From Clostridia bacterium (lineage in GTDB: Bacteria; Bacillota; Clostridia; UBA1381): a stretch of 64,000 nucleotides of DNA. Where the stretch lies: assembly GCA_017443895.1 (NCBI GenBank), contig JAFSXU010000055.1, positions 1 to 64,000 on the forward strand, given 5' to 3'. A program made the position numbers and the translations under genes. The notes beneath the pieces were generated by a model that did not search any database, was not told where the DNA came from, and worked only from the letters and a program-made list of their open reading frames with translations. Below are positions 35,385 to 41,136 of this stretch, piece after piece; within the stretch, counting starts at the first letter, position 1; each line of letters opens with the position of its first letter.

Positions 35385-38300
35385 TCAATTTCCCCAGTCT
35401 GCAAGGCTTGTAAACGGGTTGCCCCAGATATTGTTCATATACGGAATTGCATAAAAGCCCATGCCCTTTGCTTTGTCCGCACCGGTAATTTTAAGCTCAA
35501 AGGTGCTTCCGTTTAAAAGTGCCTCACCTGTATCAACCGCAATGTCCTTACCGCTTATTGAATTTATCGGCATATCGCCGTCATCCTTAGTAGCAGGATC
35601 ACTAAAGTTTACAAGGATAAATCCGTAATGACTGTATAGCTCCGTATCGTCCTCGGGAATATTTGCCTTTGCAGATAATGTAAGTGTTCCCTCCTGATAC
35701 TCTGCCGCCTCGTCAGTTATCTCGGCTGTTTTTGAAAGAGTAAGCGTAAGGGTTGACAAATTATCCGCTGATAACGGATAGTCATAGCCTGAGCCGTTCC
35801 AGCCGCCTCTGTAGCTATAGTAATCAACACCGTTACCGCCATCACTTGTTATTGTAAGTGTGTTTATGCCGTCATTTATAACCGTTCCAGTACCTATAAC
35901 ACTGCCGTCTGACATTGCATATTCCTCGCCGTTCATGGCTGCGCTCATAGTGTATGAGGAATTATAGTTTGCTCTTACAGGAACACTTACTGTCGGATTT
36001 ACATATTTATAACCCTTTGGTGCTGCAGGAACGGTAAATGAAACATTGATATTGTTATCGTTCTTTACATAGTAGCTGTCATGAACACCTATAACCATCA
36101 CCTTATCGGTATTGTTTACAAGGCATGATACCGATACATCCTTATCGGGCATTGTAAATGAATACTGAGTGTCGGACACCTTTTTAAATGTGCTTGGGTT
36201 TACACCGCTTACTACAAGTGAGTTTGCCACATACTTATCAGGCACCGTTACAACAACCGTTTCGCCCTTTGATGCGATATTCTGTACCGATACATTTGTA
36301 GCTGTAATTTTATGCGGTGCAACAGATGTGAGTTTTAGCTCCTGACCGTCAATGTATGTATACCACGGTGTTCCGTCATTCGGTGCTATAGTAAAGTCCA
36401 TAGTGCTTGGAGTTACACTGTCTGCATATTTTGCAACCGTTGTACCCTCGGCATATGCTGACGGAATGATATTTGCATGAGCACCGCTTACAGTAAACGG
36501 AGCGACTACATTTATAACCCTTCCGTTTAAATATACCTCGCCTGCGCTTGCACTGCCCGACATTTTGAAGTTATTGTTATTTACATAAACATCATAGCCT
36601 GTGTTTCCGAAAATCTTACCGCCCGACATATTGAATGTGCCGTTTTCCATAACCGAAACTCCGCCGCCAAAGCTAAGCTGTGAGGTATTTTGGGTTATTG
36701 TACCGCCCGACATATTAAATGTACCCCAGCCTACAACGGAAACTCCGCCGCCGCCAAGGTTATTGGCGTCTGTTACAGAGCCGTCCTTTATGATACCGCC
36801 GTACATATTGAGCACACTTCCCGTCTTTACATCAAAACCTGCGCCTCTTGACTCTTTTCCGCCCGTTACGATTATTCCGTGATACAGGTTTGTTGTGCCC
36901 TTGTTAAGCTCGGCAAATCTCTTTTTGCCGTTTGCGTTAAAGGTAAGCGCACTGTCCTTATCTGTCGATGTAAGCGTGCTGTTACCTAAGTTAAATACAG
37001 GAGCTGTTGCACCGCCCGTTATTAAGAACATCATATTACTTGATGTTTGTGTAACGGTTTTGCCAAATTCTCCGCCGACAACCGTTAAATTCTGTGATGC
37101 GTTAATGTCATGGCGCTTTGATGTATTACTGTCTGAATATACCTCTACAGTGTGTGCATTGTTATCAGAAATTGCACTCGTTATTGCACTGTCGTAATTA
37201 TCCTGTGCAATGTTGTCAAGGTATACACCGCTCTTTGTTTCCTTATCGGTTATGTAGAACTTTGTCTGAGCGGTTGCGCCATGTACATTCTCCCATTTAC
37301 CCAAGTTTGACGCAACAACCGATACCTCGATAGGATATGTTGCATCCACAGGGATCTCGTTCTTTAAAATTTCAACAGTCCATGAATATGAGCCGTCTGT
37401 GCTGTCAACTTTTCTTACTGCCTTTGCAGGACCGTATTCAACAAACACATCTGTGTATTTTTGAAGATCGCTGTCCTTAGATGTGTATGAAACATCAAGA
37501 GTAAGGTCGGCATTTGCGTCCTTTATATTGACATTCGGAATATTGTTTATTGTAAGGTTCTGGTCTGTTCCCTTTTTAACATACGGAACATTCATCTGAA
37601 TACCTGTATTTTTAAATACCGATACAAGCTCATTGCCGTTCCATACCTCAGGCGAATAAATCATTGCAAAGGAGTCCTGCCCTCTTACTACATCGCCTGC
37701 GGTTGCGTCATTTCCGCTGTTATAATAAACTCTGTTATTGTGGAAGCGCAGGGTACTTCTTGTAACTGCGCCTACATTCTCGGCTAATTCCGTACCGTCC
37801 GTTGTCATGCCCGACATATCTATAATTTCAGATGCGATAAGCTCATAGGGAGCTATAAGCGGTATAACCTCGGCTTTTGTGTTCTCGGGAACAACCGCCG
37901 TATCACCGACATTATCATATGCCTGATATGTTTGTCCGTCCTTTGAAACCTCGATTGACGGCACATTATTCATATAATATGTGTCCGCCGTTACGGTGTC
38001 ATAGCCCTGCAAATTTGCAGTGTTTGACGCATTTCCCGACGGATTTGACATACGCTCATAGTTTACAAACCTGTTTGAGCCGTATCTTGACATTCCGCCG
38101 TTAAAGCTTGCATACGGCGCTATCAGATTTAACTCGCTCTTGGGAGTATCTGCATAGGTTGAATCGGCAGGGTTCTTTATAAGCATATACGGCTCATAAT
38201 CGCTGTGGGTTTTGCCTGTAACCTTTGTATCGTTTGTGCCCGGGGATTCGGGGATTGCATACCTTGTAAAATCGCTTACCTCGTCTGCAAATTCCTTGTC

Positions 38301-39455
38301 AAAATACCAGAATGATGCTTGCTTGTCTGCAGGAGTTGCACCTGCATTATTCTGTCCCGATGATAACCAGCCGTTAGCCTGATAATAGCCCTTATCACGC
38401 TCTGTGTTTCCGTTCTTTTCAAACGGCTTCATAAGATAACCTGTGCTTGTAAGGTCGTTTAATGTGTAGCTGTCATTACCGCCCTTAAATGATGACGGCA
38501 ATCTGCAATCAATAGCCTTTTCGATATATTTTATCATCATAGCTGTGGCACCCGGCGACCAGTCATAGTGTCCGCTGCCCCATTCTATGATATGTGATAC
38601 AAGCTGGTTTGTATCAACCTTTCTCTGACGGTCAATATGGTATCTTGCATCACACACCGATCTGTCACGGCTTGCACCCAAAGCATGCTCGGTATACTGC
38701 GCCGCATACTGCAATGACGGGATATTCGGTACCATTCCGCTTTGCTCCGCACCTGCTGCGGCTTTCGCATCGCCCCACATACCGTTTTTCATCTGCACCT
38801 GTGCGATAACCCTGTCATAGTCCCAGTTACCGCTTCTGTAACCAAACGGATTTGCCGCACTGTGTCCTATTGTGATAACGGGCGTATTATCGGCAATCGC
38901 AGTATATCCCGATGCGCTTGCAATACCCTGCATTATATCGTTCATAATATCGGCTGCGTCCTTACCGTCCCATGTCTGATACTTTGCATCGGTAAAGAGC
39001 GGATCTCCCTTATAGTCCTCTCTTGTATACATACCCTGGAGTATGTTCTTATACGATTGACCTGTACCTGTGTATGTGTCGGGTACTTTGTCGTTCTTGT
39101 CAACAATAAATAAAATTCCGAAATTCTTTGTTGCAAGCATATCCTTTAAATCCCTTGAATATGCAAGCGGTACTTCGATAAGGTTTGTCTTTATTGCAAC
39201 AAGACCCTTGATGTTGTCCTTTGTGGTTGCCTTGTCAACCCACAAATACGCATCGTATTTTTCTCCGCTCTCCACAGCACCGCTCATATATGCGTCAGTA
39301 CCGCCTGAAAAATGGTACTGGAACACATCATCGGTGTTCAGCGGATCAATTACCGCGCCCGTATGTACTTTAGGCGTGTATGATGCCAACGCTGTTACAG
39401 TTCCTGCAAGCATTGACATTGCAGTTAAAGCTGCAAATATTTTTTTCTTTAACAT
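35385..39455 (-). CDS. Giant secreted protein: hydrolase-like N-terminus, beta-helix middle
   Basis: A 1,356-residue protein with a signal peptide (to about residue 25). Residues about 30-320 look like an alpha/beta-hydrolase: GHSAA at 197-201 resembles a nucleophile elbow, and a histidine in WGSGHYDWSPG (about 295) could complete a triad. Residues about 815-965 carry right-handed beta-helix repeats (GGTITQNTS, GTFNMSGGKIFGNTG). Beta-sandwich-like segments follow. No LPxTG or SLH motif is seen, so it may be released. The function, possibly on a plant or host ester or glycan, is inferred. AGGGG site; divergent from an AraC regulator. Confidence 0.75.
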   Translation of the reverse strand: MLKKKIFAALTAMSMLAGTVTALASYTPKVHTGAVIDPLNTDDVFQYHFSGGTDAYMSGAVESGEKYDAYLWVDKATTKDNIKGLVAIKTNLIEVPLAYSRDLKDMLATKNFGILFIVDKNDKVPDTYTGTGQSYKNILQGMYTREDYKGDPLFTDAKYQTWDGKDAADIMNDIMQGIASASGYTAIADNTPVITIGHSAANPFGYRSGNWDYDRVIAQVQMKNGMWGDAKAAAGAEQSGMVPNIPSLQYAAQYTEHALGASRDRSVCDARYHIDRQRKVDTNQLVSHIIEWGSGHYDWSPGATAMMIKYIEKAIDCRLPSSFKGGNDSYTLNDLTSTGYLMKPFEKNGNTERDKGYYQANGWLSSGQNNAGATPADKQASFWYFDKEFADEVSDFTRYAIPESPGTNDTKVTGKTHSDYEPYMLIKNPADSTYADTPKSELNLIAPYASFNGGMSRYGSNRFVNYERMSNPSGNASNTANLQGYDTVTADTYYMNNVPSIEVSKDGQTYQAYDNVGDTAVVPENTKAEVIPLIAPYELIASEIIDMSGMTTDGTELAENVGAVTRSTLRFHNNRVYYNSGNDATAGDVVRGQDSFAMIYSPEVWNGNELVSVFKNTGIQMNVPYVKKGTDQNLTINNIPNVNIKDANADLTLDVSYTSKDSDLQKYTDVFVEYGPAKAVRKVDSTDGSYSWTVEILKNEIPVDATYPIEVSVVASNLGKWENVHGATAQTKFYITDKETKSGVYLDNIAQDNYDSAITSAISDNNAHTVEVYSDSNTSKRHDINASQNLTVVGGEFGKTVTQTSSNMMFLITGGATAPVFNLGNSTLTSTDKDSALTFNANGKKRFAELNKGTTNLYHGIIVTGGKESRGAGFDVKTGSVLNMYGGIIKDGSVTDANNLGGGGVSVVGWGTFNMSGGTITQNTSQLSFGGGVSVMENGTFNMSGGKIFGNTGYDVYVNNNNFKMSGSASAGEVYLNGRVINVVAPFTVSGAHANIIPSAYAEGTTVAKYADSVTPSTMDFTIAPNDGTPWYTYIDGQELKLTSVAPHKITATNVSVQNIASKGETVVVTVPDKYVANSLVVSGVNPSTFKKVSDTQYSFTMPDKDVSVSCLVNNTDKVMVIGVHDSYYVKNDNNINVSFTVPAAPKGYKYVNPTVSVPVRANYNSSYTMSAAMNGEEYAMSDGSVIGTGTVINDGINTLTITSDGGNGVDYYSYRGGWNGSGYDYPLSADNLSTLTLTLSKTAEITDEAAEYQEGTLTLSAKANIPEDDTELYSHYGFILVNFSDPATKDDGDMPINSISGKDIAVDTGEALLNGSTFELKITGADKAKGMGFYAIPYMNNIWGNPFTSLADWGN

Positions 39456-39586: not shown

Positions 39587-39606
39587 GATTTTGGGGAGTG
39601 ATTTTT

Positions 39607-40383
39607 ATGTATGCAAAAAAGGATGCATATTTTTATAACAAGCTTGAAAATAAGCCGAAAACCGAGTATAAGGACGGCTGGCACAAGTGGTATTTTGAGT
39701 ATTTCATAGAGCCTGTGCATGTGCTTGACGGCGACGGAAACGACATTGTTGCGCATCCGGGCGAATTTTACCTTGTGCCGCCGTATAACAGAATGTATTT
39801 TAATTACGATACACCCTTTTTCACGCATACAAGCTGTATTTTTGATGCAGACGAGGAGTTTATGGCAAGGCTTTCCATTCCCTATATGATGCCTATAGAA
39901 ATAAAGAACAAAAGCGGTTTTGAGATGCTTTTGCACCTTCTTGAAGAGGCGCAGAGGAGTAATTCGGATATGAGTAAGACAGAGCAGGATATGTATTTGT
40001 CGCTTGTTTTGATGTTTGTCCACGACCAGGTTACGGATAAGGGCATGGTGTATCGGTTTAACAGCGCCGATGTTCTCCACAGCACGCATAACACCGTTAT
40101 GAACTCGCTTGCCATTGACTGGAGCGTGGAAATGATGGCGCACACTGCAAAAATGAGCGTAAGCACCTTTATTCGCCAGTATAAACGGCTTTACGGCAAA
40201 ACGCCCATGGCGGATTTATACGATGCGCGGTTTAAACACGCAAAACGGCTTTTGGATACGGGGTATTCGATTTCGTGGGTGCTAAATTCGTGCTGTTTTA
40301 AGTCAAACCAGCACTTTTCGCATTTCTTTAAAAACCGCACGGGTATTAGCCCCAGTGAATATTTGAAATTAAAAAAGAAGTGA
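39607..40383 (+). CDS. AraC-family transcriptional regulator
   Basis: A 258-residue regulator. The N-terminal half is a cupin-like sensor (DGWHKWYFEYFIEPVHVL, HPGEFYLVPPYNRMYF). The last ~100 residues form the double helix-turn-helix (DWSVEMMAHTAKMSVSTFIRQYKRLYG and HFSHFFKNRTGISPSEYLK). It is divergent from the giant secreted-protein gene and likely controls it in response to a sugar or breakdown product. I use the ATG at 39607 because GGGGAG lies 8 nt upstream; a GTG three codons earlier is too close to that site. Confidence 0.88.
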   Translation: MYAKKDAYFYNKLENKPKTEYKDGWHKWYFEYFIEPVHVLDGDGNDIVAHPGEFYLVPPYNRMYFNYDTPFFTHTSCIFDADEEFMARLSIPYMMPIEIKNKSGFEMLLHLLEEAQRSNSDMSKTEQDMYLSLVLMFVHDQVTDKGMVYRFNSADVLHSTHNTVMNSLAIDWSVEMMAHTAKMSVSTFIRQYKRLYGKTPMADLYDARFKHAKRLLDTGYSISWVLNSCCFKSNQHFSHFFKNRTGISPSEYLKLKKK

Positions 40384-40384
40384 T

Positions 40385-40570
40385 TTATTTTTTGTATTGA
40401 GGAAAGCACAGCAGAAAATAATCACATTCATCACAGCATATTTCGTAATATCTTCCGTATTCGTCTTTATGCACCCCGTTTCCCTTGCAGTATTTATATA
40501 TAGAAGGAGTAAGCTCTGTGCCTGTTTCATCAACAGGCTTTTTTAGTTTCTTTTTAGATAGCTTTTTCAT
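40385..40570 (-). CDS. Small Cys-rich protein (61 aa) behind a structured leader
   Basis: A basic N-terminus (KKLSKKKLKK) is followed by a cysteine-bearing part: one Cys at Y-C-K, then C-C-D-E-C and a last C in FLLCFPQY. This arrangement could bind zinc or another metal. I do not recognise a family. GAGGTC gives a ribosome site directly after the U-tract of an upstream terminator (40583-40590). Its stop is 1 bp from the convergent AraC stop. Confidence 0.6.
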   Translation of the reverse strand: MKKLSKKKLKKPVDETGTELTPSIYKYCKGNGVHKDEYGRYYEICCDECDYFLLCFPQYKK

Positions 40571-40582
40571 AAAATTGACCTC

Positions 40583-40782
40583 AAAAAAAAGTGTGTTACC
40601 CAAAGAGCAACACACATAAAATGCATAGCTCTTGAAAGTTACCACACAATCATAACCTTTAAGCAAACTGAATAATCATAAAACCGTCCAAGTCACATAA
40701 AAGACAGAGCCCGCATTTTTAACAAGGTTAAAAATAGAGACCCAAACGGTTTTTGCTATTTAATTGTTATGATTATGTGGTG
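40583..40782 (-). ncRNA. Structured ~200-nt leader RNA ending in a terminator
   Basis: The predicted RNA opens with ACCACATAATCATAAC (40766-40781), which pairs over 16 bp (one G-U) with 40641-40656. Inside are AGCAAA/UUUGCU, AAACCGU/ACGGUUU and the hairpin AUUUUUAAC-cuu-GUUAAAAAU. After the long helix comes a terminator: GUGUGUU/AACACAC with U8. The terminator loop GCUCUU can also pair with the upstream AAGAGC (near 40628), an antiterminator-like alternative. It has its own consensus promoter. It could be a riboswitch or attenuator for the Cys-rich gene, or an independent small RNA. Confidence 0.7.
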
Positions 40783-40787
40783 CTTAT

Positions 40788-40816
40788 ATTATACCACCAA
40801 TTTTTTTATTTATCAA
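40788..40816 (-). promoter_or_regulatory. Promoter of the structured leader RNA
   Basis: On the complement TTGATA (40811-40816), 17 bp, TATAAT (40788-40793). Transcription would begin at about 40781, the first base of the long helix. Confidence 0.75.
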
Positions 40817-41000: not shown

Positions 41001-41081
41001 ATGGTTTCTACAGATTGGTCTTGCTTTATAATACAAGTCATCGTAATTGCTATGATTATTAAATGGATAAAAAAGATTTAA
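41001..41081 (+). CDS. Toxin-like hydrophobic peptide 1 (26 aa)
   Basis: The frame encodes M-V-S-T-D-W-S-C then a hydrophobic stretch (FIIQVIVIAMII) and a basic end (KWIKKI). One membrane span with a positive tail is the usual layout of type I toxin peptides that insert in the inner membrane. Support for a real gene: strong AAGGGGGTG site 7 nt upstream, consensus promoter, its own terminator, and a facing small RNA with matching loop sequence. It is shorter than most known Firmicute examples. Confidence 0.65.
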   Translation: MVSTDWSCFIIQVIVIAMIIKWIKKI

Positions 41082-41136
41082 AAATATCAACCCCCTAGCC
41101 CCCAATCTTGGGGGCAAAAAGGAAATCTTTTTTGTT
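41068..41136 (+). terminator. Terminator of toxin-like mRNA 1, with an anti-ribosome-site segment
   Basis: AAAAAAGATTT (41068-41078) pairs with AAATCTTTTTT (about 41124-41134) around an inner stem GCCCCC/GGGGGC. Between them ACCCCCT (41090-41096) is complementary to the AGGGGGT of the ribosome site at 40986-40992, so the 3' end could also fold back on the leader. Confidence 0.6.

Follow-up and report, generated by a model that had tools for sequence, protein, structure and literature searches.

The window, that is, the whole 64,000-nt stretch of a Clostridia bacterium contig analyzed here, carries on its minus strand a leader RNA situated between a promoter and the gene of a 61-aa Cys-rich protein (Table 1). 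An AraC-type regulator gene occupies positions 39598-40383, and directly beyond it, at 35385-39455 on the minus strand, lies the gene of a 1356-aa secreted protein with repeats. Small hydrophobic ORFs (MVSTDWSCFIIQVIVIAMIIKWIKKI, MDLEYIITFMILVIIIIISIKK), with inverted repeats near them, were seen at 41002-41082 (plus strand) and at about 1258-1326 of L002, another locus of the same genome; they adjoin two leaders and have a type I toxin-antitoxin-like look.

Table 1. Parts of the leader and of its first gene in the window
Feature	Positions	Strand	Basis
Sigma-70-type promoter, TTGATA-17-TATAAT, extended -10 (TGGTATAAT)	40788..40816	-	sequence
Whole leader RNA (switch)	about 40583..40782	-	cmsearch match and fold
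P1 5' strand, ACCACAUAAUCAUAAC	40766..40781	-	fold; P1 covariation in relatives
A*, GGGUCUCUAUUUUUAACCUUGUU region, sequestering A within the apical hairpin	40721..40744	-	MFE; shuffle comparison
Segment A, AAAAAUGCGGGCUC, partner of B (anti-antiterminator)	40707..40720	-	pairing and covariation
P1 3' strand, GUUAUGAUUGUGUGGU	40641..40656	-	fold; covariation
Segment B, AAGAGCUAUGCAUUUU, partner of A or of the terminator 5' half	40618..40633	-	pairing and covariation
Intrinsic terminator hairpin, GUGUGUUGCUC-UUU-GGGUAACACAC	40591..40615	-	sequence; covariation in relatives
Antiterminator contact, GCUCUU of the terminator, able to pair with AAGAGC in B	40603..40608	-	pairing, covariation
U8 tract of the terminator	40583..40590	-	sequence
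Shine-Dalgarno GAGG	40579..40582	-	sequence
Cys-rich protein ORF (61 codons and stop)	40385..40570	-	homologues often with the same leader

The promoter had been described as a consensus one, and it matches the consensus at 11 of 12 positions. The leader model matched by cmsearch at 40782-40585 (104 bits, E = 1e-18), and the 211-nt leader fold reached -66.2 kcal/mol versus -39.5 for shuffles (z = -7.3), with 0 of 200 shuffles as good. As the original prediction had it, a 16-bp helix (P1) closes the base of this fold at the start of the RNA, and the MFE structure contains additional helices within it. The terminator that had been placed just before the ribosome site is also there; the 6-nt gap assigned to the interval between them is not, since the U-tract immediately abuts the Shine-Dalgarno sequence. 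The pairing noticed between the loop motif GCUCUU and the upstream AAGAGC (40633-40628, in segment B) is longer in relatives, where it covaries. A second rival pairing, absent from the original prediction, joins the apical AAAAAUGCGGGCUC to GAGCUAUGCAUUUU (A:B).

Rfam 15 gave no match for the window leader at the gathering threshold, and 20 related loci yielded tRNA and RNase P only; neither the window nor these loci had an Rfam T-box match. Permissive scans of three members returned at best a microRNA family far below threshold (E = 0.02), clearly by chance. The leader had been given the form of a riboswitch or attenuator of no recognized class, which agrees with the lack of any strong Rfam match to a known class and with the covariation among homologues that supports every helix tested. 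Fremin and Bhatt (2021; PMC8040213) reported 3161 mostly unnamed structured-RNA candidates from human microbiomes, among which this RNA class could be present without a name. No account of the class was found in the literature search, which covered PMC8040213 by main-text passages only, and these passages hold no description of this architecture. The leader is a member of an RNA class uncatalogued in Rfam 15.

Searching the same genome at the DNA level revealed four further leaders, each before a different gene, and related genomes supplied two additional ones. Furthermore, using only the Cys-rich protein as a protein query led to two other Clostridia, both of them deer-gut MAGs with the same leader in altered sequence. 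A covariance model (R1) built from nine leaders, comprising same-genome paralogues and relatives, matched in 53 of the 70 genomes of the family. A full-length model (R2), built from 29 full leaders, matched in 76 of the order's 95 genomes, a single genome holding up to 26 copies, and in 96 of the 391 genomes of class Clostridia (56 of 222 genera, at least 20 families). In a phylum-wide draw of 398 genomes, which includes some class members without a match, R2 matched in the window's own genome and in no other; the initial screen scored few candidates in each genome, and at that depth the sampled genomes outside the class gave none. As to origins, the two related MAGs come from deer gut, and two partial matches come from human faeces.

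Four features recur in the family: an extended -10 promoter in fixed register, P1, segment A in the apical part, and segment B with the terminator behind it. Relative to P1 base 1, the -35 element lies at -34 to -29 and TGnTATAAT ends at -6, a register that is the same in most of the 149 copies. Because the promoter is locked to P1, the spacing indicates that transcription most likely starts at the P1 base. A conserved unpaired AAUA comes just after the P1 5' strand; the apical hairpin holds A, made of AAAAAYGC plus AAAUUCC (long subtype) or AUGCUC (short subtype); and CAAUC, B and the terminator follow in this order 3' of P1. Segment A is partly sequestered by the strand 5' of it, with a hairpin of -9.4 kcal/mol versus -5.2 after a mononucleotide shuffle of the upstream sequence. 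About ten unpaired bases are conserved (AAUA, UUUG of the apical loop and CAA after P1), and these are the likeliest contact sites of a putative effector. At L002 of the same genome (1501-1569), B and the terminator are kept before a Cu-amine-oxidase-N protein, and a recognizable P1 5' strand and A are lost.

For P1 and the terminator, a plain MAFFT alignment of 29 leaders had 95.4% of cells paired, double changes in 17 of 22 pairs and a covariation of 0.559, versus 0.255 in shuffled and at most 0.123 in slid alignments. The 72 leaders aligned with the model, and so biased towards it, gave 97.5%, 19 of 22 pairs and 0.581 versus 0.222. The 15-bp A:B pairing, which is not part of the covariance model, had 96.2% of cells paired and 8 pairs with double changes, with a covariation of 0.288 versus 0.195 shuffled and at most 0.093 slid. 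The pairing of B with the terminator 5' half (B:T) is the weakest among the supported helices, at 75.7% of cells paired and 0.225 versus 0.179. It is important to consider that all these pair counts refer to sequences and not to events. Additionally, when partners were swapped between copies, the own pair was better for both A:B and B:T (0 of 20,000 permutations). The energy test on 144 copies also favored own partners over swapped ones, and the median energies were -13.0 kcal/mol for the terminator, -14.6 for the antiterminator and -19.8 for A:B, the last being that of a bare duplex with the pseudoknot cost excluded. Since A:B and B:T both need B, they are mutually exclusive, and B:T uses up the terminator 5' half. 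The promoter register, P1, A:B, B:T, the terminator and the exclusion between the two pairings of B are conserved across the family.

We interpret the element, with a probability of about 0.8, as a transcription-attenuation leader: a module of about 200 nt composed of a promoter, a folded sensor domain and a conditional terminator. An intrinsic terminator lies between promoter and start codon, and a conserved antiterminator excludes it. RNA polymerase would start at the P1 base, and P1 would close a long hairpin whose apical part holds A. With B paired to A, the terminator behind B would form and transcription would stop just before the ribosome site. With A kept in its own apical hairpin, B would instead pair with the first half of the terminator, allowing readthrough into the gene. 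The rival pairings would most likely determine readthrough. The choice between them would be regulated and not fixed, presumably through a small molecule or some factor sensed by the P1/apical domain. We lean somewhat towards a signal that stabilizes A:B, so that the genes would be turned off. What sets A may be a small molecule, a protein or another RNA copy acting in trans.

Downstream genes were scored with heuristic gene calls as ATG ORFs with a Shine-Dalgarno sequence within 150 nt, and a clear ORF was found behind 95 of 146 scored copies. The distances from terminator to ATG form two clusters, 13-35 and 65-100 nt, and the shorter spacing leaves no space for another promoter. For the far-spaced copies, a search of the 65-100-nt stretch before the gene for a known second RNA gave no Rfam match, and the stretch did not align cleanly. 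Several of these copies (L041, L090, L031, L022, L067, L073, L078, L075 and L152) seemingly have a common second motif between terminator and ATG (GGAG..., then a GUGCGCAAA-like sequence). Most first genes code either for tiny proteins or for secreted ones, such as BspA-type LRR and Cu-amine-oxidase-N proteins. Among 93 first products scanned with Pfam, 19 were BspA-type LRR_5 and 7 Cu_amine_oxidN1 proteins. Signal-like N-termini, called by a simple heuristic, occurred in 51 of the 68 first products of at least 100 aa versus 53 of 239 neighbours (odds ratio 10.5). The tiny first products include the Cys-rich, 'YKEMYF' and '...HDF' families and AbrB-like proteins; a glycosyltransferase and SLOG proteins are further leader-linked products.

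This diversity bears on the ligand. A metal or thiol had been thought to suit the Cys-rich protein, a suggestion that is not supported, because the same leader precedes many unrelated protein types. As the Cys-rich protein is one of several recurrent partners, such a ligand is not indicated, and with partners this diverse the protein tells nothing specific about the signal. When the Cys-rich family was searched irrespective of leaders, the element stood directly upstream at 23 of 40 homologue loci; the 17 homologues without a detected leader, together with the diverse partners, led us to reject the protein as a guide to the ligand. Some leader-less homologues lie in a different, divergent-promoter setting. 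Those at L168, L190, L193, L195 and L197 have in common a promoter region containing a palindrome similar to GGACTAATATTAGTCC, next to a divergently oriented neighbour, a context that suggests control by another regulator, which may belong to a mobile element.

Two points are less suited to a pure cis-leader, namely, that some copies lack a clear gene and that tandem copies have promoters of their own. In the sample, 51 of 146 copies, or about a third, fail the gene test, some of them owing to contig ends or non-ATG starts. The gene-less copies are mainly of the short subtype, and some keep promoter, A, B and terminator intact, followed by the terminator of a convergent gene or by nothing. Tandem pairs number 17, each copy having its own promoter where read; at L113 (1513-2516), the leader and a small gene (MIDFYKFPPKTPKTIDRL...) are tandemly duplicated as one unit. 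A post-terminator complement of the P1 3' strand and B was seen at L125 (1996 on), L097 (1763 on), L114 (1719 and 8829 on), L129 and L153. Among the 45 gene-less copies, 7 have it and look as though a third strand might substitute for A; at this frequency, the complement was rejected as a general feature.

The intact gene-less copies (within the limits of contig ends and non-ATG starts), the tandem copies and an RNA 5' end fixed at P1 would all suit a small-RNA gene, whose terminated RNA of about 200 nt acts in trans while the downstream gene is incidental or fed by readthrough. However, the tight bimodal spacing to the ATG, the strong excess of secreted and tiny products among first genes, and a conserved antiterminator, needless for a plain small RNA, make this distinctly unlikely. 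Also doubtful is a portable promoter-switch module with two roles, in which copies before genes would be attenuators and gene-less copies would be small RNAs that bind the leaders in trans through their A and B segments. A mobile, MITE-like repeat with accidental promoter and terminator could explain many copies per genome, tandem copies and diverse neighbours, but identity between copies is 75.0% within one genome versus 74.5% between genomes. Within-genome copies being as divergent as between-genome ones, the element is an old multi-member family and not a recent mobile repeat, and recent amplification is not supported. Moreover, covariation reflects selection on the RNA, and searches gave nothing in plasmids and two partial matches in phage records, while viral contigs had no exact match to the core. 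We regard a mobile repeat as very improbable.

The transcription-attenuation leader that we favor leaves room for different sensors. Its three-way pairing logic is that of trp-type attenuators, in which a ribosome on a short leader ORF would set the switch. Yet only 40 of 149 elements have a Shine-Dalgarno-preceded ORF of at least 5 codons, and the AUG inside A is not conserved, being often ACG, GUG or AUA, so a leader peptide is highly improbable. A strict riboswitch, as a sub-case of the attenuator, would have the P1/apical domain bind a small molecule, perhaps a second messenger, and govern surface proteins. One compact conserved domain, many copies before functionally related secreted products and the conserved unpaired AAUA, UUUG and CAA speak for it. 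On the contrary, a metabolite aptamer would be expected to conserve more than about ten unpaired bases, the genes suggest no ligand, and a protein or RNA effector would look identical; we consider the strict riboswitch a tentative reading, at somewhat less than even odds.

Present in many sampled Clostridia, at up to 26 copies in a genome, and lacking an Rfam entry, the element would rank among the more abundant unexplained RNA classes of this bacterial class. The secreted LRR and stalk-type proteins that it precedes probably make contact with the host and with neighbours. If gene-less copies did act in trans on the leaders, surface-protein expression in each genome would be apportioned by a network of cross-pairing RNAs. 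Because the rival helices make direct predictions for mutants, mechanism and signal can be tested together.

The transcription-attenuating riboswitches and leaders of Firmicutes have the same promoter-proximal sensor domain, rival helices and terminator just before the ribosome site. Unlike them, the element described here has no Rfam class, keeps its promoter in a fixed register with P1, stands ahead of unrelated genes, reaches up to 26 copies in a genome and has many gene-less copies. Trp-type leader-peptide attenuators likewise have three mutually exclusive helices but, in contrast to this element, a conserved leader ORF. Type III toxin-antitoxin operons (ToxIN) consist of a promoter, an RNA, an attenuating terminator and a small gene, a layout that is the same as ours, and some proteins downstream of the element are also tiny. 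However, ToxI repeats are lacking here, the downstream proteins are diverse and mostly secreted, and no ToxN-like ribonuclease is among the first 25 Pfam families listed in the census. Rli51 of Listeria is reported to be both a 5' UTR attenuator and an sRNA (PMC11394854). It occupies a single Listeria locus, in contrast to the multi-copy element of the Clostridia, and offers a precedent for a terminated leader form with a possible role of its own, such as the gene-less copies might, conjecturally, have.
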